In this document: piece by piece, positions 13,696-28,123 of the stretch
How positions within the stretch are numbered: the first letter of the stretch is position 1
How the letters are laid out: each line of letters starts with the position of its first letter
Source of the DNA: an uncultured Sulfitobacter sp.
GTDB lineage: Bacteria; Pseudomonadota; Alphaproteobacteria; Rhodobacterales; Rhodobacteraceae
Assembly: GCF_947497275.1 (NCBI RefSeq)
Contig: NZ_CANMFS010000006.1
Coordinates: 1-64,000, forward strand
Direction of reading: 5' to 3'
Length of the DNA stretch: 64,000 nt
The notes under the pieces: generated by a model
Database searches by the model: none
The model's input: only the letters and a program-made list of their open reading frames with translations
What the model was told of the DNA's origin: nothing
Made by a program: the position numbers and the translations under genes

Positions 13696-14466
13696 CTAGC
13701 AAGAGTTTTCCGGCGCCCTGCGCGGTGCGGTGTGGCGGCTTGACCGGCGGGTCAGACGGCGTTCGATCTGTAGGAAAGCATCATAGGTCAGCACCGCGAA
13801 CAACCCCACGATCAAACCGCCTTGAAGCACATAAGCCGTGTTGTTGGTCAGCAGCCCGGCGATGATCGGTTCGCCCAGGGTGCGCGCCGCGACGGTCGAA
13901 CCGATGGTGGCGGTGCCAAGCGCGATCATCACGGAAATACGGATACCGGCCAGGATGACTGGGGCGGCCAATGGCAACTCCACCTGCACCAAACGCTGCC
14001 AGCGGTTCAGGCCCATGCCGCGTGCGGCCTCCATCGTGGCTGCTGGCAGGGTTGATAATGCAGTCAGTGCGTTCTCGAATATCGGCAAAAGACCGTAGAG
14101 GAACAGCGCCACAAGTGTCGGACGCGCGCCGAACCCCAGCGCCGGCACCGCCAATGCCAGAACCGCGACCGGCGGAAAGGCCTGCCCGACATTGGTGATG
14201 GTACGAGACAGAGGCCCAAAGGCGGCTCCCACTGGGCGGGTGACAAAAATCGCCAGCGTCACAGCAATCAGCGTTGCGGCAAGGCTTGCGGTGGCGACCA
14301 GCGCAAGATGATTGAGCGACAGCGACAATAGCGAAACCCGGTCGTAGATCACCGGGCCGCGTTCGGGTGCGAAGGGGGCAAACACCGCCGTGAAAAGATG
14401 CGGCTGCACCACCAGCGCCAGCAACAGGGCCACAAGGGCGATGCGGATGACATGTGACGCCGTCAT
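13696..14466 (-). CDS. yehW: Osmolyte ABC transporter permease, YehW-like
   Basis: A 256-residue inner-membrane permease with about six helices and the BPD_transp_1 EAA loop (EAARGMGLNRWQRLVQVELPLAAP). It is the last gene of a four-gene operon in the same order as the E. coli yehZYXW (OsmU) system. Its ATG overlaps the stop of the ATPase gene by four bases (ATGA). It would pair with the YehY-like permease to form the membrane channel for a compatible solute such as glycine betaine; the substrate is inferred from the family only. Confidence 0.88.
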   Translation of the reverse strand: MTASHVIRIALVALLLALVVQPHLFTAVFAPFAPERGPVIYDRVSLLSLSLNHLALVATASLAATLIAVTLAIFVTRPVGAAFGPLSRTITNVGQAFPPVAVLALAVPALGFGARPTLVALFLYGLLPIFENALTALSTLPAATMEAARGMGLNRWQRLVQVELPLAAPVILAGIRISVMIALGTATIGSTVAARTLGEPIIAGLLTNNTAYVLQGGLIVGLFAVLTYDAFLQIERRLTRRSSRHTAPRRAPENSC

Positions 14467-15398
14467 ACGTACCGCCTTACCCGCTGGCGGATTGCCTGCA
14501 ACGTCACGCGGCCAGCCTGAGTGCCGTCGCGCTCAACCGGAATCGCATCGCGTCCCGACCATAGGCAGGCCGACAGCGCATCGCGCAGACTGGCGGTTTC
14601 GGGCAGGGGATCGCCGTCGGCGGTCCCGTTTTCTGCCAGTTCCGACACCGGGATCAGCGACAACAGGCGCATCGGACGTTCGGCATCCCCAACCATATCG
14701 GCCACAAAGCTGTTGCCGGGGTGCGCGACGATATCTTCGGGTGGGCCGTATTGCACCAGCCGTCCCTCATCCATAACGCCGACGCGGTCGCCCAGACGGA
14801 TCGCCTCTTCCATGTCGTGGGTGACCAGAACGATGGTCGATCCCAGTTTGCGCTGGATCTGTTTCAGATCGTCCTGCGCTCTTGCGCGGATGATCGGATC
14901 AAGCGCACCGAAAGGTTCGTCCATCAAAAGCACATCTGGCCTCGAGGCCAGCGCACGCGCCACACCAACCCGCTGTTGCTGGCCGCCCGACAATTCCTGC
15001 GGATAGCGGTCGCGAAACGCCGCCGGGTCCATGCCGAACAGCGTCAACAGTTCGTCCACCCGGTCGCTGATCTTGGTGGTTGACCAGTTCAGCAGGCGCG
15101 GCACTGCGGCGATATTGCGCGCGACCGTCTGGTGCGGAAACAACCCGTGCCCTTGAATGGCATAGCCGATGCGCCGCCGAAGCAGGTGCGGGGCGACGGC
15201 GTGGGTTGGCTCGCCGTTGATCCGAACCTCGCCGGACGTGGGTTCGACCAGCCGGTTGATCATCCGTAAAAGCGTGGTCTTGCCCGACCCCGAGGTGCCG
15301 ACGACAACTGTGATGGTACCTGTGTCCATCTGCATCGACACTTCGTCAACCGCGTTGATGGTGCCATAACGCTTGGTAATCTGGTCAATTTCGATCAT
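14463..15398 (-). CDS. yehX: Osmolyte ABC transporter ATPase, YehX-like
   Basis: This 311-residue protein has a complete ABC ATPase domain: Walker A GTSGSGKTT near residue 34, Q-loop AIQGHGLF, signature LSGGQQQR, Walker B VLLMDEPFGALD and the switch His in VTHDMEEA. About 80 residues follow the nucleotide-binding domain, where OpuA-type ATPases carry regulatory CBS domains; this tail (LRDALSACLWSGRDAIPVER) resembles a single degenerate CBS-like unit. It is translationally coupled to both neighbours by four-base overlaps. Confidence 0.92.
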   Translation of the reverse strand: MIEIDQITKRYGTINAVDEVSMQMDTGTITVVVGTSGSGKTTLLRMINRLVEPTSGEVRINGEPTHAVAPHLLRRRIGYAIQGHGLFPHQTVARNIAAVPRLLNWSTTKISDRVDELLTLFGMDPAAFRDRYPQELSGGQQQRVGVARALASRPDVLLMDEPFGALDPIIRARAQDDLKQIQRKLGSTIVLVTHDMEEAIRLGDRVGVMDEGRLVQYGPPEDIVAHPGNSFVADMVGDAERPMRLLSLIPVSELAENGTADGDPLPETASLRDALSACLWSGRDAIPVERDGTQAGRVTLQAIRQRVRRYV

Positions 15399-16570
15399 GT
15401 GGTGTTCCGGTTCTGTGCGGGCTGCGCGAATTCAACAAAGATATCCATGAGGATGGCGGCAACGATGGCCATGGCGACCGTGGGCAGCGCCCCCAACAGG
15501 ATCAGATCGGTCGCGGTCTGGTTGAGCCCCTGAAAGACGAAGGTGCCGAACCCGCCACCGCCGATCAGCCCGGCAATGACCGCCAAGCCGATATTCTGCA
15601 CTAGCACGATGCGCAGCCCCGCGAGGATCACCGGCAGCGCAAGCGGCAGTTCCACCGCCCGAAGCCGTTGGCCCATCGTCATGCCCATGCCGCGTGCGGC
15701 TTCGATGGCGGGGGCGGGAACGGAGGCAAAACCGGCAACGGTATTGGAAACCACCGGCAGCAGCGAATAAAGCAGCAGTGCGACGAATGCGGGCGCAAAG
15801 CCGATCCCGGCAATACCAATGTCGCGCGCCATGGGCACATTGGCCCCGACCCAGCCCAGTATCGGGATCATGATGCCGAACATCGCAAGTGACGGAATGG
15901 TCTGGACAAAGCTGAGAACTGGCAATGTTGCGGCGCGCAGACGCGCATTGCGGTGGCACCAGATGCCCAGCGGAAAACCGATGACGCCGGCAACACCGAG
16001 CGACCCTAGCGCAAGTGCGACATGCCGCGAGGCGGCGGTCCAGAAACTGCTGGCGCGGGTATGGTATTCCTGAAGCGGTGACAGGTCGTCCAGAACGCCC
16101 GACCAGAACAACAGCGCCATCGCGACAAGCGCGCCGCTCAGCAGTGCAAGGCGCAGGCGCGGTCCCGGTGCAAACCCGCCCACCGCATCGGCGATGAGCA
16201 GCATCGCAACCGCGAACAGGCACCAAAACCCCGCACCCGGCGACAGGCGCGCCAGATCTCCGGCTTCTGGCAGTTGCACGCTGGCCGCTCGCGACAAAAG
16301 CAGCAGGATACCGCCAAGGCAGACAAGCCCGCCAAGCATCCGCAGCCAGGGACGAAGCCGTGACAATCCGCACGCTAGCCCCGCCAGAATAGCCAACAGG
16401 GCCACTGCCGTCACCCCCGGCCCGGCCGTTGCCCATGCCGCCAGCCCGTCACCTGCCACGATCCGGTTGGCCCGCAGCGTTACGAACGGCAGCAGCAGCG
16501 ACCCAAGACCAAGGGCGGCAAACAGCGCGCCGGGTGGGGAAAGCGGAAACCGCGCAGCCCGCGCCGCCAT
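15395..16570 (-). CDS. yehY: Osmolyte ABC transporter permease, YehY-like (long form)
   Basis: 391 residues, close to E. coli YehY. The N-terminal half is a block of four to five hydrophobic helices without the transport motif. The C-terminal half is a canonical BPD permease with the EAA loop EAARGMGMTMGQRLRAVELPLA. The long N-terminal extension is characteristic of YehY and helps assign the operon. It lies eight bases downstream of the receptor gene and overlaps the ATPase gene. Confidence 0.9.
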   Translation of the reverse strand: MAARAARFPLSPPGALFAALGLGSLLLPFVTLRANRIVAGDGLAAWATAGPGVTAVALLAILAGLACGLSRLRPWLRMLGGLVCLGGILLLLSRAASVQLPEAGDLARLSPGAGFWCLFAVAMLLIADAVGGFAPGPRLRLALLSGALVAMALLFWSGVLDDLSPLQEYHTRASSFWTAASRHVALALGSLGVAGVIGFPLGIWCHRNARLRAATLPVLSFVQTIPSLAMFGIMIPILGWVGANVPMARDIGIAGIGFAPAFVALLLYSLLPVVSNTVAGFASVPAPAIEAARGMGMTMGQRLRAVELPLALPVILAGLRIVLVQNIGLAVIAGLIGGGGFGTFVFQGLNQTATDLILLGALPTVAMAIVAAILMDIFVEFAQPAQNRNTT

Positions 16571-16578
16571 CGCCCCGC

Positions 16579-17487
16579 TCAGTCAAACACTCCTGTACTG
16601 ATCAGATGATCCCGCGCAACAGCTTCGGATGCCTCGCCGCCAACTTGGATACGCCCGTTCAGTTTTTGCAGTGTGGTCATGTCCAGCCCGCCAAAGATCG
16701 GGTTCAGCACGTCGGCGATCGCGGGATATTCGTCCAGCACCTCGGCGCGCACGATCGGTGCGGGTTCATAGACCGGCTGAACGCCCTTGTCGTCCTCCAT
16801 CACCACCAACCCGGTCGCGCCGACACCGCCATCGGTGCCGTAAACCATTGCCGCATTCACCCCCGAGGTACCGCGCGCGGCGGCTTGGATGGTGGCCGCC
16901 GTGTCACCCCCTGAAAGGATCACTGTCTGATCCTGACCCAGGTCGAACCCATAAGTTTCCTGCATCGCTGGAAGCACAGCGGGCGAGGATACGAATTCGG
17001 TCGAGGCCGCCAGCTTGACCTCGCCGCCACCCGCGACCCATTTGCCGAAATCGCTCATTGTGGTCAGGCTGTTCTGTTCGGCCAAAGGACCGGTCACGGC
17101 AATCGCCCATGTGTTATTGGCCGGTGCCGCCTGAAGCCAGACGATGTCATTGGCCTCTCCGTCCAGTTCCTTGGCGCGCTCATATCCGTCGCTGGCGTTC
17201 TTCCACAAATCCTTGTCCGCCTCGTTGAAAAAGAATGCTGCATTGCCGGTGTATTCGGGATAAATGTCGATCTGATCGGCGAGAAGCGCCTCACGCACGA
17301 CCTGTGTGCCGCCCAGTTGCAGACGCCGCTCGACCGGTAGCCCAGCATCCTCAAGCGCAAGTGCCACGATATTGCCCAGCAATCCGCCTTCTGTGTCGAT
17401 TTTCGATGACACGACGATATCAGCCTGCGCCAGGGTACCAACACCCGCCACGAGCCCGAGGGTCGCGAGAAATTTGTCTACGATCAT
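16579..17487 (-). CDS. osmF: Osmolyte-binding periplasmic receptor, OsmF/YehZ-like
   Basis: A 302-residue receptor with a short signal peptide (MIVDKFLATLGLVAGVGTLA-QADIVV) and an AGGAACAGG ribosome binding site. It is an OpuAC-type fold: SSKIDTEGGLLGNIVALALE at the start, IYPEYTGNAAFFF, AAPANNTWAIAV and MVYGTDGGVGATGLVVMEDDKG. First gene of the osmF-yehY-yehX-yehW operon. In enterobacteria the system is induced by salt and stationary phase; no EcfG-like element is seen directly upstream here. Confidence 0.9.
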   Translation of the reverse strand: MIVDKFLATLGLVAGVGTLAQADIVVSSKIDTEGGLLGNIVALALEDAGLPVERRLQLGGTQVVREALLADQIDIYPEYTGNAAFFFNEADKDLWKNASDGYERAKELDGEANDIVWLQAAPANNTWAIAVTGPLAEQNSLTTMSDFGKWVAGGGEVKLAASTEFVSSPAVLPAMQETYGFDLGQDQTVILSGGDTAATIQAAARGTSGVNAAMVYGTDGGVGATGLVVMEDDKGVQPVYEPAPIVRAEVLDEYPAIADVLNPIFGGLDMTTLQKLNGRIQVGGEASEAVARDHLISTGVFD

Positions 17488-18534: not shown

Positions 18535-20106
18535 ATGACACAAATTACACGTCGAAATCTTTTGAACATGATCGGCACCGTCGCAGGCGGTACAGCGATG
18601 TACCATGCCATGGCCGCAATGGGGCATGCCGCGCCGTCCAGTTACACAGGTCCACCGAAACTGGATGGCGATCCGCAGGGTACCAAAGTTCTGATTCTGG
18701 GCGCGGGTCTTGCCGGGATGACGGCGGCGCTCGAAATGCGCGCCGCAGGTTATGAGGTCGAAATTCTGGAGTTCCGCGAGAAAGCTGGCGGACGCTGCTG
18801 GACGCTGCGGTCCGGTGATGAATTTACCGGACTGGGCGAAAAGAAGCAGACCGTGGATTTCGCCGAAGGGAACTATATCAACCCCGGACCGTGGCGCATT
18901 CCGCATCATCATTATGCGGTGTTGGACTACTGCCGCAGGCTGAACGTGCCGCTGGAAGTCTTCGTGCAGCAGAACTTTAACAGCTATCTGCACCGCAGCG
19001 ATGCTTATGACGGCAAACCACAACGTCTGCGTGAGATCGAGACCGATTATCGCGGCCATATTACCGAGTTGCTTGCGAAGGCGGTCGATCAGGACAAGCT
19101 GGATGAGTTGGTCACGCCCGAAGATCGCGAAATGTTGCTGGAAAGCCTGCGCAGCTATGGCGTGCTGGATGACCAAAACGAATATGTCAAAAGCCTGCAA
19201 ACCAGCGAATATCGCGGCTTTGACAGAAGGCCCGGTGGCGGTGTTGACGGTGCACCCATCGCATCGGACCCGATGGATCCCCAGCAGATCATCAAGTCAG
19301 GCCTGTGGGCGCATCTCTCTACGCATTATTCGCTTCAGCACCAGGCACCGATGTTCCAGCCGGTTGGTGGCATGGATGGCATCGCCAAGGGGTTCGAGCG
19401 TGAAGTCGGCGATCTGATCACCTACCACGCCAAGGTTGTGTCACTACAACAGGACGACGAAGGCGTGACCGTGACTTGGGAAGATACCCAAGGCGGCGGA
19501 CAACGCACATCAACGGCGGATTGGTGCGTCTGCACGATCCCGTTCTCGATTCTGGGCCAGATAGATCACAATCTTTCGGGCGATCTGGCAACCGTCGTGG
19601 ACACGATGTATTACAACGGTTCCGTCAAATGGGGTTTGGAATTCAAGCGTCGCTTCTGGGAGCAGGACGAGCACATCTACGGCGGCGTCTCCTACACTGA
19701 TCAGGCGATTTCGGAGATCAGCTATCCGTCCACGGGTTATCATTCCGAAGGGCCGGGCGTGCTGCTCGGGGGCTACACTTGGCGCGGTGCCAATTCGTTC
19801 AAGTTCAACGCGATGTCGCCGGAGGACCGGATCAAAGTCGCGCTTGATCAAGGGGCGAAAATTCATCCGCAATACCATGACGAATTCAAGACCGGCGTCA
19901 CCGTATCCTGGCACAAGGTGCCTTGGGTGCTGGGCTGCGGTGGCGTTTGGGAAAACCGCGACCAATATCCCGGCGCAGTGGAAATCGACAATCGCGTGGT
20001 CTGCGCAGGCGAGCATCTGTCCTATCTGCCAGCCTGGCAGGAAGGCGCGATCCTGTCCTCGCTTGACGCGATTTCGCGTCTTCATGACAAAGTTATCAAC
20101 GGGTGA
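18535..20106 (+). CDS. FAD-dependent amine/L-amino-acid oxidoreductase, Tat-exported
   Basis: A 523-residue flavin amine oxidase family protein. The start at 18535 follows GGAGA and gives an N-terminus with paired Arg (TRRNLL) and a hydrophobic segment ending near HAA, consistent with Tat export of a folded flavoprotein. The FAD-binding Rossmann motif GAGLAG is at residues 56-61, followed by the EF...AGGRCWT segment; the C-terminal flavin-binding motif is AGEHLSYLPAWQEGAI. The likely reaction is oxidation of an amine or L-amino acid to an imine. The next gene, five bases downstream, encodes a cytochrome c joined to an imine hydrolase (RidA), so electrons probably go to cytochrome c rather than to oxygen. 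Substrate is unknown. Confidence 0.88.
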   Translation: MTQITRRNLLNMIGTVAGGTAMYHAMAAMGHAAPSSYTGPPKLDGDPQGTKVLILGAGLAGMTAALEMRAAGYEVEILEFREKAGGRCWTLRSGDEFTGLGEKKQTVDFAEGNYINPGPWRIPHHHYAVLDYCRRLNVPLEVFVQQNFNSYLHRSDAYDGKPQRLREIETDYRGHITELLAKAVDQDKLDELVTPEDREMLLESLRSYGVLDDQNEYVKSLQTSEYRGFDRRPGGGVDGAPIASDPMDPQQIIKSGLWAHLSTHYSLQHQAPMFQPVGGMDGIAKGFEREVGDLITYHAKVVSLQQDDEGVTVTWEDTQGGGQRTSTADWCVCTIPFSILGQIDHNLSGDLATVVDTMYYNGSVKWGLEFKRRFWEQDEHIYGGVSYTDQAISEISYPSTGYHSEGPGVLLGGYTWRGANSFKFNAMSPEDRIKVALDQGAKIHPQYHDEFKTGVTVSWHKVPWVLGCGGVWENRDQYPGAVEIDNRVVCAGEHLSYLPAWQEGAILSSLDAISRLHDKVING

Positions 20107-20111
20107 GAGCA

Positions 20112-21086
20112 ATGAGAAAGCAAACCAGAGTTTTTGCGGCGGCCCTGCTTTTCGCGGGTTCTATTGCCAATGCGCAGTCCAGCAACGAAATCGTGGGGGA
20201 CGACGCGGCGCCGAATGTCGATACCCCGATGGAAGAAGCCATCGCGCCGGACCGGCATGTACCGGATTTCGGCAAGGCGGGTTATTCGGCGACCGATGGC
20301 AAGGCGCTTTACGAGTCACTTTGCGCGGGATGCCATATGCCCGACGGCAAGGGAGCTATTGGAGCCGGTGAATATCCGTCGCTCGCAGGGAACGACTTGC
20401 TGTTGTCCGCTGCCTACCCAATCTATCTGATCATCAATGGCCAGGCCGCAATGCCGAGCCTCGGCCATCTGCTGGACGATGAGCAGATCCTGGCAGTGAC
20501 CGATTATATCCAGACTAATCTGGACAATGATTATGAAACCGACGGCACGCTGGAACTGGTGGCGGACTCGCGTCCCGAAACGGAGGAAGAAATGGCAACC
20601 GAAGAACATGCCATTCCTCAAGAGTCAGCTGAACCTTCAGCGAAACGCGACACCGTCGCAAACGTGGTGCGTCACGGTTTGCCCAATTCAGATTTCCCGA
20701 TCCTGCAAGCCGTGGAAGTGCCCGCCGATGCGACGTTAGTCTATCTCAGCGGCACGGTTCCACAGGTGCTCGACGATTCCGCGTCCGAAGGGGCGCCGGA
20801 GCGTTTTGGCGACACGGCGGCCCAGACGGACAGCACGCTTACCTCGATCCGCTCCAAGCTGGAGGCGCTCGAGCTCGGGATGGGCGATGTGATCAAGATG
20901 CAGGTCTATCTGGTCGCACCTGACGGACAAGACAGCATGGATTTTTCAGGCTTCATGGAAGGATATACCAAGCATTTTGGCACCGACGCCCAACCCGAAC
21001 TTCCCACCCGGTCGGTTTTCGAGGTGGCGGGTTTGGCCAATCCCGACTGGCTTGTCGAAATCGAAGTGGTCGCGGTGCGCCCGTGA
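20112..21086 (+). CDS. Periplasmic cytochrome c-RidA (imine deaminase) fusion protein
   Basis: 324 residues. Signal peptide 1-22 (cleavage after NAQ). Residues about 55-137 form a monohaem class I cytochrome c: CAGCH at 71-75 binds haem covalently and Met114 in AAMPSLG is the likely sixth ligand. After an acidic linker (about 140-180), residues 185-324 are a YjgF/YER057c/UK114 (RidA) domain ending PTRSVFEVAGL...LVEIEVVAV; Arg300 matches the conserved catalytic Arg and the Glu residues of VEIEV are present. RidA hydrolyses reactive 2-imino acids or enamines to ketoacid and ammonia. Physically joined to a cytochrome and encoded five bases after an amine oxidoreductase, it should both take that enzyme's electrons and hydrolyse its imine product. 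The ATG at 20112 is preferred over a GTG at 20103. Confidence 0.9.
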   Translation: MRKQTRVFAAALLFAGSIANAQSSNEIVGDDAAPNVDTPMEEAIAPDRHVPDFGKAGYSATDGKALYESLCAGCHMPDGKGAIGAGEYPSLAGNDLLLSAAYPIYLIINGQAAMPSLGHLLDDEQILAVTDYIQTNLDNDYETDGTLELVADSRPETEEEMATEEHAIPQESAEPSAKRDTVANVVRHGLPNSDFPILQAVEVPADATLVYLSGTVPQVLDDSASEGAPERFGDTAAQTDSTLTSIRSKLEALELGMGDVIKMQVYLVAPDGQDSMDFSGFMEGYTKHFGTDAQPELPTRSVFEVAGLANPDWLVEIEVVAVRP

Positions 21087-21227: not shown

Positions 21228-21812
21228 ATGGATATCCCTCTCGAAATCGCATGGCGCAACGTCGAAAAATCAGAACCGCTTGAGACGATCATCAGGGAAA
21301 GAGCCGAAAAGCTGCATCGTTATTTCAGCCGCATCAACTCCTGTCGTATCGCTGTCGAAGTGCCGCATCGCAGCCAATATCATGCGCACGAATTTCATTT
21401 GCGAATTGAGGTGCGGGTGCCAGAGGATGAAATCGTGGTCAGTAACGATCCCGGCGACCGAAATGACCATTTCGACCCCAATATCGCGGTGCGGGATGCG
21501 TTTAACGCGATGGAACGTCGGCTGGAAACCCATTCGCAGAAGATGCGCGGTGAAATCAAGACACTGTCAGGCCCGCCACAAGGCCGGGTGATCCGCAAGT
21601 TCGACGGTTACGGCTTTGTCAGGATGAACGACGGGCAGGAGATTTATTTCGCGCCCAACGCGGTGGTGGCGGACGATTTCGAAAGCTTGGACGTGGGCGA
21701 CGCGGTCGAGTTGACGGTGGCTGAGGGTGAGGGCGCAATGGGGCCGCAGGCCTCCATGGTGCGGCCGATCAGTGATTTGCAGATCAATCCCGACAAGCGC
21801 GAAAACATCTGA
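21228..21812 (+). CDS. HPF/RaiA ribosome-hibernation domain fused to cold-shock domain
   Basis: 194 residues. Residues 1-110 are a ribosome-associated hibernation factor (sigma-54 modulation) domain: WRNVEKSEPLETIIRERAEKL, then HRSQYHAHEFHLRIEVRVP. Residues about 115-180 are a cold-shock-type RNA-binding domain: GRVIRKFDGYGFVRMNDGQ with the FGF-like YGFV patch, then IYFAPNAV. The HPF part would sit in the ribosomal A/P site region and the second domain would contact RNA. It is a known alphaproteobacterial arrangement and distinct from long HPF, which carries a dimerisation domain instead. The ribosome binding site is weak. Confidence 0.88.
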   Translation: MDIPLEIAWRNVEKSEPLETIIRERAEKLHRYFSRINSCRIAVEVPHRSQYHAHEFHLRIEVRVPEDEIVVSNDPGDRNDHFDPNIAVRDAFNAMERRLETHSQKMRGEIKTLSGPPQGRVIRKFDGYGFVRMNDGQEIYFAPNAVVADDFESLDVGDAVELTVAEGEGAMGPQASMVRPISDLQINPDKRENI

Positions 21813-21854: not shown

Positions 21855-23393
21855 ATGCAAGGCGACGCCCATCATGAAACCGATCAGGCCGAGGCCATCG
21901 CATTTTGCGAAAATGGCGCGGGGATTGGGGCGGAGGCTGATCGGACAGACACCCACGGCGCAATCATATTCCTGATCGGCGACCGCGCGCTCAAGATGAA
22001 GCGCGCGGTGCAATACGACTATATGGACCTGTCGACTCTGGAAAAGCGCAAGGCATTGCTGGAGCGCGAATTCGAATTGAACAGCAAGACAGCTCCCTCG
22101 ATTTATCGCGGTGTCATCCCGCTGACGCGCGAAGCGGATGACAAGCTTGCCCTTGATGGTGATGGCGATGCGGTGGAGTGGGTTCTGTCGATGTGGCGGT
22201 TCCCGCCCGAGGCCGAGTTGACGCATATCGCCAGCAACGACGGCATTGATGACACGCTTGCCCAGGATCTGGGAGAAGCGATTGTGCGCTATCACGGGGA
22301 TGCCCCGGTGAAAGACGCCGACGGGGTTACGCTTATCACGGAAATTCTGGATGAGCTGGACCGCGTATTCGGCGCTATGGAAAACGAATTTCAGGACAAT
22401 GCGCTGCGGTTCGTCCGGCAGGGCAGGGCGATGCTTTCTGATCGTGCCGGGGTGATGCGGGCGCGGTCGCGCGCGGGCTTTGTCCGCCGCTGTCATGGCG
22501 ATCTGCACCTACGTAATATCGTGCTGCTTGAAGGTGTGCTTACACCGTTCGACGCGCTGGAATTCGATGAACGTCTGGGCACCTGCGATACGCTCTACGA
22601 CTTCGCGTTTCTGCTGATGGACCTGTTGCACCGCGGCTTCGCCCATCCGGCAAACATGGTACTGAACACCTATTTGAACGGGGTGTCCGATCACATGGAA
22701 GATGCCGGATTGGATATCCTGCCGCTCTTCTTGGGAATTCGTGCGGCTATCCGTGCCATGGTCAGCATCCAGACCTCCGAATTCTCCTCAAGCTCGGAGA
22801 AGATGCTGACCGACGCCCGTGACTATCTGCAAGAAGCGCTTGACTATCTGGACCCTCCGGCCCCGGTCCTCGTTGCCATCGGCGGGCTGTCGGGCAGTGG
22901 TAAAACCACAATTGCCCGCGCCATTGCGCATCGCATCGGCGCGTTCCCGGGCGCGATCCATATCCGCAGCGATGTGGTGCGCAAGAAAATCATGAAGGTG
23001 GATCCGCTGGAACCGTTGGACTCCGAAGGCTATGCGCCGCCGATCACCGCCCAAACCTATGAATCGATCCGCCAGCAGGCCACACAGGTTCTGGCGCAGG
23101 GCCATGCCGCGATTCTCGATGCCGTGCATGACAATGCCGAAAGCCGCGCGGCAGCCAGAGATGTGGCCCAAGAGGCGGGATGTGAATTTATCGGGATCTG
23201 GCTTGAAACGCCGACAGATGTCCGCAGCAACCGTGTCACAGGACGCGGGCCTGATGCATCGGATGCCGACCCGTGGGTCGTCAAGCAACAGGAGCGGATC
23301 GACCCCGGGCCGCTCGACTGGCAGCAGATAGATGCGGACCGCCCGTTGGCAACGGTTATTTCGGATATAGCGGCAAGGCTGCCGAAGCGTTAA
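21855..23393 (+). CDS. Bifunctional APH-like phosphotransferase / P-loop kinase fusion
   Basis: 512 residues, start after GAGGGAAAG. The N-terminal 330 residues have an aminoglycoside-phosphotransferase-like fold: the catalytic loop is CHGDLHLRNI (near residue 213) and the metal motif region is FDALEFDERLGTCDTLYDFAF. The C-terminal 175 residues are a gluconate-kinase/AAA-type P-loop kinase, Walker A GGLSGSGKTT at about 343-352, with IRSDVVRKK and a later Arg-rich lid. This two-kinase fusion is widespread in proteobacteria but its substrates are unknown; resistance to aminoglycosides should not be inferred. It follows the HPF-cold-shock gene by 42 bases and may be co-transcribed. Confidence 0.85.
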   Translation: MQGDAHHETDQAEAIAFCENGAGIGAEADRTDTHGAIIFLIGDRALKMKRAVQYDYMDLSTLEKRKALLEREFELNSKTAPSIYRGVIPLTREADDKLALDGDGDAVEWVLSMWRFPPEAELTHIASNDGIDDTLAQDLGEAIVRYHGDAPVKDADGVTLITEILDELDRVFGAMENEFQDNALRFVRQGRAMLSDRAGVMRARSRAGFVRRCHGDLHLRNIVLLEGVLTPFDALEFDERLGTCDTLYDFAFLLMDLLHRGFAHPANMVLNTYLNGVSDHMEDAGLDILPLFLGIRAAIRAMVSIQTSEFSSSSEKMLTDARDYLQEALDYLDPPAPVLVAIGGLSGSGKTTIARAIAHRIGAFPGAIHIRSDVVRKKIMKVDPLEPLDSEGYAPPITAQTYESIRQQATQVLAQGHAAILDAVHDNAESRAAARDVAQEAGCEFIGIWLETPTDVRSNRVTGRGPDASDADPWVVKQQERIDPGPLDWQQIDADRPLATVISDIAARLPKR

Positions 23394-23484: not shown

Positions 23485-24834
23485 TCAACTGTTCAGGACA
23501 AGCGCGCCGGGGTCGTCCAGCAGCGCCTTGACCCGTTGGACGAAACGCGCGGCTTCTGCACCGTCGGCAACGCGGTGATCGAAGGTTAGGCAGACCGGCA
23601 AGCAAAGCGCGACTTCGGTAGTGTGTTCGTCGATATCGCCTCGAACGACATGCCGCAACTCGGCCCGCGCCACACCAAAGATCGCGGTTTGCGGCGGGTT
23701 GATGATGGGGGCGAGGCCGGTACCGCCGATCGCGCCCACATTGGTCAAGGTAAACGTCGCGCCGCGCAGATCATCGCGCGTTGCAGCGTCTTCGCGCAGT
23801 CGGTCGCCCAGCTTTTTCAGGTTCACTGCCAGTTCCGCGATGCTCTTGGCCCCCGCATCGCGTAACACCGGCACCAGAAGGCCGCGGTCGGTGTCGAGTG
23901 CAACACCGATATTGACGTCGGGTAGCTGATGCACGGCACAGGCGTCCGCGTCGAAAGTGGCATTGAAATTGGGAAAATCGGCCAGCGTGATGGCCAGTGC
24001 CTTGACGATGAACGGCGTCAGGGTCAGTGCGCCACCCTGCTGTTCGATCTCGGCCTCATGTTCCCGCCGGAGACGTTCCAGCGCCGTGATCTCGATCACG
24101 TCCTGATGGGTGACATGCGGAATCTCGCGCCAAGCCTGCGCCATACGGCGTGCCGTGGTGCGCCGCAGCGAGCGCAGTTCGACGATTTTCGCACCTTCCG
24201 CCCGTCCTGCGTCTCCTTTGTCTCCAGCGGCGTCCTGGACATCCTTTTTTAAAACCCGGCCGTCCTTACCGCTGCCTTTGACATTCGCCAGATTGATCAC
24301 CAATTCCCGCGCCAACCCGCGCACGGCGGGTGTGGCCAGCGGTTTTTTAGCGGCGGAAGATGTCGTGTCGCCGCTCTTTTGCGTGCTACCATCTTCTGTG
24401 ACCTCATTGTCTTGCGTGTCTGTGTCGTCATGCCCGGTATCCGCGCCATCACTCTCGCCGGACGGTGCCTCATCTGAGGTCTCGCCATTCTCGTCGTCTT
24501 TCCTTGCGTCCTCGGCGCTCTTCTTCTCATCCGTATCCGTGTCGCTGTCTTGCTCGGCCGCGCCACTTCTATCGGCGTCCTGCTCTGTATCATCACCGGC
24601 CTCGCCGAACACCATCAGCACGTCGCCCACTTCTGCGATGTCGCCCACGGCGACGCGGATCTCGCGCACCTCACCATCCACCGGCGCAGGAATTTCGACC
24701 GCTGCCTTGTCGGTTTCGGCCACGACAACGGTGTCGCCTTCAGAGACATGATCGCCTTTGCTGACGGTGATTTCGAGGATTTCCGCCTCGTGAATGCCTT
24801 CGCCGGGATCTTGCAAGCGAAATTCATGTGCCAT
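23485..24834 (-). CDS. 2-oxoacid dehydrogenase E2 (dihydrolipoamide acyltransferase)
   Basis: 449 residues. Lipoyl domain 1-78 with the lipoylated Lys43 in ETDKAAVE; a long acidic, Ser/Thr/Asp-rich linker (about 80-165); the peripheral subunit-binding domain (ATPAVRGLARELVINL, GSGKDGRVLK); and the chloramphenicol-acetyltransferase-type catalytic domain ending with DHRVADG, which carries the catalytic His and Asp. It takes an acyl group from E1 and passes it to CoA. The parent complex could be pyruvate- or branched-chain-specific; the single lipoyl domain is more usual in the latter. The E3 subunit is not in this operon. The linker is much more acidic than the usual Ala/Pro-rich linkers. Confidence 0.92.
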   Translation of the reverse strand: MAHEFRLQDPGEGIHEAEILEITVSKGDHVSEGDTVVVAETDKAAVEIPAPVDGEVREIRVAVGDIAEVGDVLMVFGEAGDDTEQDADRSGAAEQDSDTDTDEKKSAEDARKDDENGETSDEAPSGESDGADTGHDDTDTQDNEVTEDGSTQKSGDTTSSAAKKPLATPAVRGLARELVINLANVKGSGKDGRVLKKDVQDAAGDKGDAGRAEGAKIVELRSLRRTTARRMAQAWREIPHVTHQDVIEITALERLRREHEAEIEQQGGALTLTPFIVKALAITLADFPNFNATFDADACAVHQLPDVNIGVALDTDRGLLVPVLRDAGAKSIAELAVNLKKLGDRLREDAATRDDLRGATFTLTNVGAIGGTGLAPIINPPQTAIFGVARAELRHVVRGDIDEHTTEVALCLPVCLTFDHRVADGAEAARFVQRVKALLDDPGALVLNS

Positions 24835-24845
24835 TTACACGCCTC

Positions 24846-25823
24846 CTAATAGTCGAGAACCGATTTGCAGACACCCAAGATGCGGGCGCAATCAGGCAGA
24901 TACCGCTGTTCGCGGGCGAAATAGGGAACATGCACATCCGGTCCCGCAACCCGTCCCACCGGCGCCTCAAGGCTGAGAAACGAATCCTCCATCACCCGCG
25001 CTACGATCTCGGCGCCGGGACCATAGCTTAGCGGCGCCTCATGCACGACGACACAGCGTCCGGTCTTGCGAACCGAGGCCGTGACCGTCGGCCAGTCGAG
25101 CGGTGAAATTGTCAGGAGGTCGATCACCTCAGCGCTGACGCTATCCTTGGCCAGTGCCTCCGCAGCCTCTATTGTGCGCGGCAGCATGGCACCGTAGGCG
25201 ACAATCGTGATGTCTCCGCCCTCTCGCACCGTGACCGCCTTGCCAATTTCGGCAATTTCTTCGTCGTCCGGCACCTCCTCACGGAAGGCGCGGTAGCTGG
25301 CTTTAGGCTCGAAAAACACCACCGGATCGGGGTCGCGGATCGCCGCCAGCAGCAGGGAGCGCGCGTTGCGCGGCCCCGACGGCACGACGATCTTCAGCCC
25401 CGGCATATGGGCATAGAACACCTCGCGGCTTTCCGAGTGATGTTCGAGCGCGCGCACTCCCGCACCGTAAGGCATGCGTACCGTCATTGGCACGCTCAGA
25501 CCGCCCTGCGAGCGCCAGCGCATTCGGCTGGCGTGCGATTCAAGCTGGTGAAACCCTTCATATGCGAAGCCGGAGAACTGCAATTCGGGCACCGGGATCA
25601 TGCCGCGCATCGCCATGCCGATGGCAAACCCGAGGATCCCGCTTTCGGCCAGCGGCGTGTCCATCACGCGAGCCTCGCCGAATTCCTCGATCAGGTCCTT
25701 GGTGACACGAAAGATCCCGCCGTCGACACCGACATCCTCGCCCAGCAGCACGACGCGTTCGTCGCGCTGCATTTCTTCGCGCAGCGCCAAGTTGATTGCC
25801 TCGACCATAGTCAGTTCAGCCAT
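24846..25823 (-). CDS. 2-oxoacid dehydrogenase E1 beta subunit
   Basis: 325 residues, full length for the family. Landmarks: ERVVLLGEDVG near residue 20, TPLAESGILGFAIGMAMRG, ELQFSGFAYEGFHQLESHASRMRW, MPYGAGVRALEHHSES and VVFFEPKASYR. It completes the thiamine diphosphate active site with E1 alpha, whose stop codon it overlaps by eight bases. Second gene of the E1alpha-E1beta-E2 operon. Confidence 0.93.
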   Translation of the reverse strand: MAELTMVEAINLALREEMQRDERVVLLGEDVGVDGGIFRVTKDLIEEFGEARVMDTPLAESGILGFAIGMAMRGMIPVPELQFSGFAYEGFHQLESHASRMRWRSQGGLSVPMTVRMPYGAGVRALEHHSESREVFYAHMPGLKIVVPSGPRNARSLLLAAIRDPDPVVFFEPKASYRAFREEVPDDEEIAEIGKAVTVREGGDITIVAYGAMLPRTIEAAEALAKDSVSAEVIDLLTISPLDWPTVTASVRKTGRCVVVHEAPLSYGPGAEIVARVMEDSFLSLEAPVGRVAGPDVHVPYFAREQRYLPDCARILGVCKSVLDY

Positions 25824-26916
25824 CGGACCATCCTCCGGGGTTCTGGCCCTGCTCCATGCGCTTGCGCTGGCGGGCCAGTTCGGGCGTTTCTTCGGCGTAG
25901 ATATGGGCGAACATCGGGTCGGTGTCTTTCAACTCCTCGATCCGGTCGGACGCGGTCTGCCATGCTGTCTCGATTTCGTCCTTGATCTCGTCCTCCATCG
26001 TGGCGATGGCATCGTCATCGAGCAGGTCGCGTCCCTTCAGCCACTTGCCGAACCGCTCGATAGGGTCGCGCTTGCGCCATTTATCGACCTCATCGTCTTC
26101 GCGGTAACGGGTGGGATCATCGGCGGTGGTGTGCATTTCCATCCGGTAGGTCACACATTCGATCAACGTCGGCGTGCCCGTGTCGCGGGCGCGCTCAACC
26201 GCCTCATGGGCGGCAACATAGCAGGCGAAGATGTCGTTGCCGTCCACCTGAATGCCGGGCACACCGTATGCGACAGCCTTCTGCGCCAACGTCTCGGACC
26301 GGGTTTGGCGCGCGCGAGGCACGGAAATCGCGTACTGGTTGTTCTGGCAGACGAACACCACGGGGCAATCAAACACACCGGCAAAGTTCATCGCTTCATG
26401 GAAATCGCCCTGACTGGTGGCACCATCGCCGAAATAGGTCATGGCGATGTCATCCGCTCCCAGCATCCGCGCCGCGTGGGCGATGCCTGCGGCCTGAAGC
26501 ATTTGTGTGCCGACCGGCACCGACAGCGGCGTCAGCCGCCCGTCCTCGGCCAGCTTGCCGCCTTCGTTGTAGCCGGCGTCGTAAAGAAGCATGTCGGCTG
26601 GATCGGTGTCGCGCCAGAAATGCGCCGCTGTTTCCCGATAGGACGGAACGAACCAGTCGTTTTCGGCCAACGCTGCAATGGTACCGACTTGCGCAGCCTC
26701 CTGCCCGGTGACCGGGGCAAAGGTGCCGATACGTCCCGAGCGTTGCAATTTCAGCCGCCGTTCGTCAAAGCGACGCGCCTTGATCATAGTGCGGTACCCT
26801 CGCAGCAGCATGTCGTCTGGAATCTGCGGCACCAGTTCGTTGTCGGCCTCGCCGGATGGGTCAAGAATGGACAGATGTTCGATCTCAAGGCCGAGATCCA
26901 GCGTCTTTCTGGGCAT
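25816..26916 (-). CDS. 2-oxoacid dehydrogenase E1 alpha subunit
   Basis: 366 residues from the ATG at 26916, which has a perfect GGAGGTTGTC ribosome binding site; the open frame extends further upstream but that part is non-homologous. Motifs: GQEAAQVGTIAAL, WFVPSYRE, the thiamine diphosphate motif GDGATSQGDFHEAMNFAG...CQNNQYAIS and HTTADDPTRYR. It decarboxylates the 2-oxoacid and reductively acylates the lipoyl group of E2. The sequence is of the PdhA/BkdA Gram-positive-like type, so pyruvate, branched-chain oxoacids or both are possible. An EcfG-like element lies 28 bases upstream, suggesting induction by general stress, unusual for a central metabolic complex. Confidence 0.92.
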   Translation of the reverse strand: MPRKTLDLGLEIEHLSILDPSGEADNELVPQIPDDMLLRGYRTMIKARRFDERRLKLQRSGRIGTFAPVTGQEAAQVGTIAALAENDWFVPSYRETAAHFWRDTDPADMLLYDAGYNEGGKLAEDGRLTPLSVPVGTQMLQAAGIAHAARMLGADDIAMTYFGDGATSQGDFHEAMNFAGVFDCPVVFVCQNNQYAISVPRARQTRSETLAQKAVAYGVPGIQVDGNDIFACYVAAHEAVERARDTGTPTLIECVTYRMEMHTTADDPTRYREDDEVDKWRKRDPIERFGKWLKGRDLLDDDAIATMEDEIKDEIETAWQTASDRIEELKDTDPMFAHIYAEETPELARQRKRMEQGQNPGGWSDG

Positions 26917-26944
26917 GACAACCTCCGTAAATCCGTACAACTGA

Positions 26945-26970
26945 AACGCGAAACTGCTTAAGAAAGTTCC
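26945..26970 (-). promoter_or_regulatory. EcfG-like promoter upstream of the E1alpha-E1beta-E2 operon
   Basis: On the minus strand GGAAC (26970-26966) is followed after 17 bases by CGTT ending at 26945. Spacing to the E1alpha start (28 bases) gives a short leader, as at the other EcfG-like sites in this window. Confidence 0.6.
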
Positions 26971-27040
26971 GACCGGAACCGCGCGGGTGAGTACGCCTTG
27001 GTTCAGAACCAGTCCACGCGACACGACAGGCCAACCCTCT

Positions 27041-28123
27041 ATGCCCAAGAGCCCCACCCAAAAGCTAACTGCCGACCATCTGGCAGAAAATAAAATGACC
27101 CGGGACGATTTGATTGGTTTGCGGATCGACCAGACCTTGGCACAGGATGCGACGGGAACGTTGGAGATGCTGGCACTGGGGGCGTTGAAGCTGCCGCACA
27201 TGCAGACCGAGCTGTCGGTGCAATATGTCGATCATAAACTTTTCCCGACCGACGATCATCTGTTCCTGCAATATGCTGCGACGCGGTTCGGCTTGTAGTT
27301 CAGCCCGCCCGGAAACGAGGTCAGTCATCCGTTGCACATGAAATATTCTAGCCCTCCGCGGCGCACGCTTCTGGGCTCCGATAGCGACGTTATCGCCAAT
27401 ATGGGCACGGAACTGGACGCCACTCGACGGTGTTCCGCCGGATGATGCGGTCAGGGATTTCCTCGTGCGGCATGGTCGCGGTAATGAATGGCAGCCGCGC
27501 GCCCGCCTCTATCAACGCCGCAAGCCGACCATCGGGGATAAGATCCGACACCAGATTCATATCGAACGATTCAAACGATACGCCAGCCGGCGCGCGTCGC
27601 CCCGGACCATGTCGGCCACAACCGCGAAATCGCAAAACCCCGGATTGGCGGATGAGCCGATATAGGCCGCGAGCGGCTGCCAATCATCGCCACGGTGCCC
27701 GAGGCCGAAGCGCAGCGACGGAGTTAATCAAGGGGCCGATTAAAACCGATTTCCCGATGTCCAAACCCTTGCAAGACACGCGCGAGATGCCGGTTGTGCT
27801 CAGGGTCGGTGACGATACATCGACCGACGAGATCATGCCGCGAAGGCCGCGGTGCTGCTCTATCGCAGCAGCATTCTGAAAATTGCGGATTTCGAGTTTC
27901 GCGTGGTGGATAAAAACTATCTCTCGCGCGCGCTGGAGGCCCGGGATGCCGATGGTCATCTAGTCGTGGCAGACGAGAATAATGATCAGGAGTCGAGCCG
28001 CGAACATGCGGTGGTGGCACCGCGCTTCCTGGGCCTGCGCGCCGTGCTGGCAAAGTCCGTTGCCCGAATTCACTACCAGAACCTCGTCAACTACGGCATC
28101 ATCACTAGCCTTTCAGTGTCGTA
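27041..28123 (+). pseudogene. Aconitate hydratase fossil
   Basis: The N-terminus is intact for about 85 residues: LTADHLAENKMTRDDLIGL, RIDQTLAQDATGTLEML and TELSVQYVDHKLF. After a stop only scraps of the central Fe-S domain survive (LLGSDS, NMGTELDAT). The swivel domain returns at the end in changing frames: VVLRVGDDTSTDEIMP, VLLYRSSILKIADF, VVADENNDQESSREHAVVAPRFLGLRAVLAKS and ARIHYQNLVNYGI. The full enzyme is about 650-900 residues, so most of the cluster-binding core, including its Cys ligands, has been deleted. Confidence 0.88.

Follow-up and report, generated by a model that had tools for sequence, protein, structure and literature searches.

What a protein of the RidA family might do outside the cytoplasm, on the same chain as a haem domain, is the question raised by one locus in a 64,000-nucleotide stretch of an uncultured Sulfitobacter sp. 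(contig NZ_CANMFS010000006.1, positions 1 to 64,000; the whole stretch is called the window here). Most work on RidA proteins has treated them as protectors of the cytosol from stray imines. A first-pass annotation had described, at 18535-21086, a twin-arginine translocation (Tat)-type flavin amine oxidoreductase gene followed after five bases by a single polypeptide comprising a signal peptide, a cytochrome c and a Rid domain, and this arrangement is borne out by the open reading frames (ORFs), their coordinates and the Pfam matches. The oxidoreductase (523 aa, 18535-20106) runs from ATG 18535 to a stop codon at 20106, a gap of five bases follows (20107-20111), and the cytochrome-Rid frame (324 aa, 20112-21086) begins with ATG 20112; an in-frame GTG at 20103, an alternative start of the second ORF, would overlap the oxidoreductase stop. 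Both genes and all their features given below lie on the forward strand. We consider it probable, by comparison of the sequences, that the two genes encode a periplasmic L-amino acid:cytochrome c dehydrogenase whose electron acceptor also hydrolyses the imine. The three-part system itself is already known, the window having a version with two parts fused, and most of this mechanism has already been proposed for the split operon.

The oxidoreductase matches the Pfam family Amino_oxidase (PF01593; E 1.3e-51, 176.7 bits against a cut-off of 19.8) and contains the flavin adenine dinucleotide (FAD)-binding motif GAGLAGM at residue 56, placing it in the flavin amine oxidoreductase (FAO) superfamily. 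Its N-terminus, read by eye, resembles a Tat signal (18535-18633), with TRRNLL beginning at residue 5, a hydrophobic stretch and an AxA-like end near residue 33. Twin Arg is found in 89 of 92 oxidoreductase N-termini, the remaining three having KR, and genes for TatC and for cytochrome c assembly are present in the genome. The best sequence relative in the PDB is the L-amino acid oxidase (LAAO) of Rhodococcus opacus (2jae, E 1.2e-90; next 1e-39). The structure model, with a mean predicted local distance difference test (pLDDT) score of 89.3, also has this enzyme as its best fold match (2jae, 2jb1; template modelling (TM) scores 0.86/0.94), sharing with it 35% identity and most substrate-site residues; the next fold family, the snake enzymes, lies near a TM of 0.65. 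Arg121 (18895-18897), Tyr414 (19774-19776), Trp464 and Trp501 align, as counted by hand, with chain positions 83, 370, 425 and 466 of 2jae; these should correspond to Arg84, Tyr371, Trp426 and Trp467 in the published numbering, the first being the substrate-carboxylate Arg. All four substrate-site residues of the R. opacus type are present in the window enzyme, and Arg121, Tyr414, Trp501 and Lys365 are kept in 34 of 34 aligned relatives. Because the nearest relative in both sequence and fold is R. opacus LAAO and most substrate-site residues are conserved, an L-amino acid is the likely substrate. We know of no cytochrome or Rid partner of R. opacus LAAO, although no search for one was made.

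The second protein begins with a Sec-type signal peptide (residues 1-21, ANA/Q as read by eye; 20112-20174) and contains two Pfam domains, Cytochrome_CBB3 (PF13442, E 2.1e-13) and Ribonuc_L-PSP (PF01042, E 4.3e-16). Within the former, the haem-binding motif CAGCH (residues 71-75, 20322-20336) and Met114 (20451-20453), the likely axial ligand, suggest a class I cytochrome c. The Rid domain (20664-21083) belongs to its family by the PF01042 match and by Arg300 (21009-21011), the equivalent of the catalytic Arg105 of RidA. These three features had been picked out in the first-pass annotation, and each is confirmed. Conservation of the catalytic and haem residues is far beyond chance: the CxxCH motif and the Met occur in 88 of 88 cytochrome rows, and of 80 Rid rows 79 show the catalytic Arg, the remaining one (L135) being cut by a contig end. 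By sequence, the nearest solved Rids are PSPTO3006 (E 7.5e-29) and PFL1385 (E 2.6e-22), and the fold comparison picks out the same pair (9bka and 9bkc; TMt 0.92 and 0.86), whose fold alignments give 41% and 36% identity. Both are Rid3 proteins, which by nearest structure makes the window domain a candidate Rid3. The model of the fusion protein has a mean pLDDT of 75.9, with the Rid part from residue 201 mostly at 90 or above (block 291-300 at 73) and the linker region, residues 161-180, at 47-60. Three further Rid genes are found in the genome, and their N-termini show no signal-like stretch by eye.

The first-pass annotation had suggested looking for the gene pair and for the fusion in other genomes, and both are found there. 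A scan of genome contigs seeded with the fusion protein gave 79 loci, 76 of which have an oxidoreductase relative in the fetched stretch (exceptions L067, L083 and L099). The system occurs in Alpha-, Beta- and Gammaproteobacteria and Campylobacterota, and also in cyanobacteria, but there without the cytochrome. Among the 95 oxidoreductase rows of the tree, 65 belong to three separate genes, 17 to loci with cytochrome only, five with Rid only, four with neither and four with the fusion; these proportions are no census, because the rows mix searches seeded with either protein. Loci that are duplicates, cut or a broken operon (L004, L005 and L116-L132) are absent from the tree, as are rows with fewer than 430 aligned oxidoreductase residues (for example L007, L107 and L147); the former loci, except L121, were also left out of the residue-conservation and Rid-export counts. 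Searches in which only the oxidoreductase served as the query are less biased; they gave 54 loci, all used in the neighbour count. Within the family, such matches were found at E 1e-50 in 16 of 394 genomes, of which 11 (window included) reach at least 50% identity, and at E 1e-90 in 23 of 398 genomes of the phylum and 16 of 385 of the class. A tight linkage of oxidoreductase and cytochrome genes is seen directly in this set: at 30 of the 31 loci with at least 47% identity (window included), a CxxCH cytochrome lies downstream on the same strand within about 1.5 kb, and at the exception, L171, it lies upstream. Therefore, the cytochrome is nearly obligatory for this branch of the oxidoreductase, and Rid is a frequent extra. 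Among the 23 loci below 47% identity, a cytochrome is downstream in five and a Rid in seven. No fusion other than that of the window was found among the 54 loci.

Several of these loci have unusual arrangements. Two such oxidoreductases are convergent in one genome (G651), one (L156) with a cytochrome downstream and the other (L171) with both cytochrome and Rid on its upstream side. In another genome (G236), the oxidoreductase-cytochrome pair and a signal-bearing Rid are on different contigs (L121 and L138). On a plasmid of Sulfitobacter sp. W074 (L116, 4789-6793), the three genes appear broken, with a 299-aa oxidoreductase frame, a small hypothetical and then short cytochrome and Rid frames. 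Two cyanobacterial loci (L069 and L076) pair a related oxidoreductase with a signal-bearing Rid with no cytochrome found adjoining, perhaps representing an O2-using version.

The export of Rid had been regarded in the first-pass annotation as a peculiarity of the haem-protein fusion, which proved too narrow. Using a home-made signal rule (an 11-residue stretch with a mean hydropathy of at least 1.5 and K/R ahead of it), 67 of 72 Rid ORFs at oxidoreductase loci pass, and the other five have the hydrophobic stretch with no K/R in view. Three of four lone operon-type Rids pass as well, the fourth having no residues ahead of the match, and none of the 14 control Rids and none of the four fused junctions do so. 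Because the free Rids nearly always carry their own signal-like N-terminus, predicted export is the rule for Rid, and the common state, in oxidoreductase-cytochrome-Rid operons. Five Rids (L039, L044, L075, L079 and L114) have lipobox-like signal ends, suggesting a membrane-anchored Rid.

The fused architecture is seen in four genomes, those of the window, L035, L036 and L037, the last three representing three other genera, and all four lie inside one Rhodobacterales clade. In 10 split relatives of this clade with a Rid (L085, L051, L056, L057, L115, L047, L061, L050, L049 and L052), the cytochrome ends with EHE-stop and the rid ATG overlaps the stop codon (GAATGA; ATGA overlap). The fused proteins continue past the same EH, in the window through 18 linker residues (A167-N184, 20610-20663) to the Rid start, at which place split relatives have the stop codon and a second signal peptide. 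This internal signal peptide is lost in all four fused proteins and the N-terminal one is retained; the junction is not hydrophobic, and the linkers of L035, L036 and L037 are polar or acidic. We infer, rather than observe, how the cytochrome and Rid frames were joined. In a tree of 23 rows and 753 columns, the rows having been chosen after a first tree had been seen, the four fused rows fall in three places within a 15-row clade (support 100/100). Forcing them together is rejected by the approximately unbiased (AU) test (p 0.0138), and they are grouped in 0% of 200 bootstrap trees. The fusion thus probably arose more than once, with two or three independent fusions fitting better than one, and a single origin is disfavoured, although one gain followed by reversals may account for the pattern. 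The case for a repeated origin is tempered by the 94 of 500 label shuffles that give a parsimony count at least as low as the observed three changes, and by the long branch of L037. Two plasmid matches, H13 (Comamonas) and H15 (Komagataeibacter), each looked like a fusion from its single tblastn piece but are annotated as separate genes, and were rejected as fusions.

How much of this was known can be judged from several published systems. In Gluconacetobacter diazotrophicus PAL5, lao, cccA and ridA (GDI2456-2454) form one operon, described in 2016 (PMC5053998), which resembles the window in having an LAAO-like Tat protein, a cytochrome c and a RidA. With Tn5 inserted in lao, the transcripts of all three genes fall, indoleacetate is abolished and most of the tryptophan stays unused; mutants in cytochrome c maturation from earlier work, as cited there, made 5% of wild-type indoleacetate (PMC5053998). 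The authors hypothesised that cytochrome c and RidA assist Lao, the three working together (PMC5053998). The window has these three families too, and in this order, as far as can be compared through the printed primers of G. diazotrophicus, but cccA and ridA are separate genes there, whereas the two parts form one frame in the window. The peptides encoded by those polymerase chain reaction primers, in frames chosen by eye (YPSHGYF, IHPNY, AIYQHV, NYVRSH, ASTIYL and LGKID), look like motifs found in the window proteins or in relatives of these, with a loose likeness for NYVRSH, and their spacing is roughly as expected, although the comparison is weak because the genes are known here from the printed primers alone (PMC5053998). 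Start to start, the motifs are spaced by 138 and 198 bases in the window, versus amplicons of 152 and 220 (primers included), and for the third pair the window has 216 bases to the motif end, versus an amplicon of 214. Of the first-pass idea of a periplasmic, cytochrome-linked and imine-handling dehydrogenase, the predicted export, cytochrome coupling and imine handling are well supported by comparison, but the idea is not new, having been put forward in much this form in 2016 (PMC5053998).

Flavin amine dehydrogenases that use cytochrome c are established (PMC12224317). NicA2 and Pnao with CycN, and their kin, share with the window a Tat flavoprotein and an adjoining Sec-exported cytochrome c, and one subclade fuses the flavoprotein to the cytochrome; the accessible main text mentions no Rid partner and no L-amino acid enzyme (PMC12224317). 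The Rid3 proteins PSPTO3006 and PFL1385 lowered semicarbazone formation when a snake L-amino acid oxidase supplied the imines (PMC5619798). Both have the catalytic Arg, as does the window Rid domain, but are free-standing, and the terms signal, export, periplasm and secret have no match in the accessible part of that article (PMC5619798). Rid3 genes were already known to cluster at times with amine oxidase genes (PMC4433059), and that article mentions multi-Rid fusions and a method step for finding fusions with other families; the word cytochrome has no match in its accessible part, supplement aside (PMC4433059). In Chlamydomonas, the L-amino acid oxidase LAO1 is periplasmic and its gene cluster includes a putative RidA gene (LAO2/RIDA); unlike the module proposed here, it makes peroxide, and no cytochrome is mentioned in the accessible text (PMC10805672). 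Among the matches listed in the open-licence PubMed Central literature, neither a cytochrome-RidA fusion nor a statement of general Rid export in such operons was found in print. The findings new here are that cytochrome and Rid are fused, that this probably happened more than once, that the internal signal was lost, and that Rid is generally predicted to be exported in the operons.

FAOs with a Tat signal and a neighbouring cytochrome are dehydrogenases, with exceptions, and this combination was a good predictor of dehydrogenase function in tested FAOs (PMC12224317); both elements are found in the window. In the proposed mechanism, the flavoprotein would be exported folded via Tat and would oxidise an L-amino acid to the imino acid, reducing its FAD. 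The haem of the cytochrome domain would take up the electrons and hand them to the respiratory chain, and the Rid domain of the same polypeptide would hydrolyse the imino acid to the 2-oxo acid and ammonia. We infer from the sequences that the substrate would be an L-amino acid, that cytochrome rather than O2 would be the acceptor and that Rid would act on the product of its own enzyme.

A number of observations weigh against this mechanism. The closest solved relative, R. opacus LAAO, is known as an oxidase, and Trp464, whose counterpart there is a Trp of the substrate site, is conserved in 23 of 34 relatives. Rid is optional, being downstream at 15 or more of the 31 close oxidoreductase loci, which is a lower bound because the fetched flank is about 1.5 kb and shorter at contig ends (L135, L143 and L147). 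No shared neighbour gene names a substrate among 78 oxidoreductase loci. In G. diazotrophicus only lao was hit, so that the roles of cccA and ridA were not separated (PMC5053998). Among studied FAOs, reactivity with O2 cannot be read from the residues around the flavin; one enzyme was fairly fast with O2 despite having a partner cytochrome, and those of clade 1 were only modestly reactive with their cytochromes (PMC12224317).

One alternative is that the enzyme is an O2-using periplasmic LAAO making peroxide, with the cytochrome serving elsewhere or as a partial acceptor and Rid still clearing the imine. The kinship with R. opacus LAAO would suit it, as would five loci (L069, L076, L097, L103 and L104) that pair an oxidoreductase of 33-41% identity with a signal-bearing Rid and in whose fetched stretch BLAST finds no cytochrome, and the FAO that used O2 in addition to its cytochrome (PMC12224317). 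We regard it as unlikely, given the cytochrome downstream in 30 of 31 close relatives and the slow O2 reaction that generally went with a Tat signal and neighbouring cytochrome (PMC12224317). The substrate might instead be an amine without a carboxylate, as for NicA2 and Pnao, with the Rid domain acting on the resulting imine; the known cytochrome c-using flavin dehydrogenases of the superfamily do act on amines (PMC12224317). This appears quite unlikely, because the Arg and Tyr at the positions of the carboxylate-binding pair are kept in 34 of 34 relatives, R. opacus LAAO reaches a TM of 0.86 and monoamine oxidases 0.58-0.60 among the 50 fold matches listed, and lao mutants of G. diazotrophicus leave tryptophan unused (PMC5053998).

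Since Rid proteins are typically trimers (PMC4433059), the fused cytochrome would be held three per complex, and the Rid domain could be a non-catalytic scaffold presenting three haems to the oxidoreductase. Its catalytic Arg is intact in all 79 readable rows and the exported Rid of split operons is unattached to any cytochrome, which makes such a role improbable. The fusion itself could be an artefact of sequencing or assembly, or a gene in decay, as the ATGA overlap of the split relatives means that a small change could join the frames; with fused frames in three other genera, linkers free of a signal, and intact catalytic and haem residues in the window fusion, this is scarcely credible.

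If the genes do encode an L-amino acid:cytochrome c dehydrogenase with an imine-hydrolysing acceptor, cytochrome c-using flavin dehydrogenases would extend from amines to amino acids, with energy kept and no peroxide made. Rid would be a working part of a periplasmic catabolic dehydrogenase, with a widespread branch apparently exported and tied to one enzyme. Destruction of the imine at the point of release is speculation. One could further imagine, tentatively and with some doubt, that one partner takes both products, the haem docking for electrons and the tethered Rid trimer receiving the imino acid during a single encounter, with no escape of peroxide or free imine. If this were true, the repeated fusion would reflect selection for a coupled hand-off and not chance gene joining. 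Having only two proteins, the fused form is simple enough for acceptor use to be probed apart from imine handling.

The surroundings of the module were also considered for clues to the substrate. A survey of neighbours by single linkage over the same 78 loci (76 from the fusion-seeded scan plus two plasmid loci) gave a largest family in 23 of 78, ABC-transporter ATPases by eye, and the next ones in seven loci, so shared neighbours were set aside as a clue. Indoleacetate as a product in this organism finds no support by the indolepyruvate decarboxylase route, the best match to that enzyme (TIGR03394) scoring 99.9 bits against a cut-off of 554.5; this model also scores below its cut-off in all 14 control genomes. 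About 2.4 kb downstream of the module, on the opposite strand, begin genes for a 2-oxoacid dehydrogenase E2, E1 beta and E1 alpha (23485-27201), E1 alpha being over the TIGR03181 cut-off. This complex could use 2-oxo acids from the module, and its families are outside the 14 most shared neighbours of the relatives. Upstream, also on the reverse strand, lies an ABC transporter set of the glycine betaine type (13696-17487), with OsmF over its cut-off. Between the module and the dehydrogenase genes, a single frame at 21228-21812 carries both an S30AE ribosome-associated domain and a cold-shock domain, and 21855-23393 encodes a 512-residue protein with a C-terminal AAA/zeta-toxin-like kinase domain.

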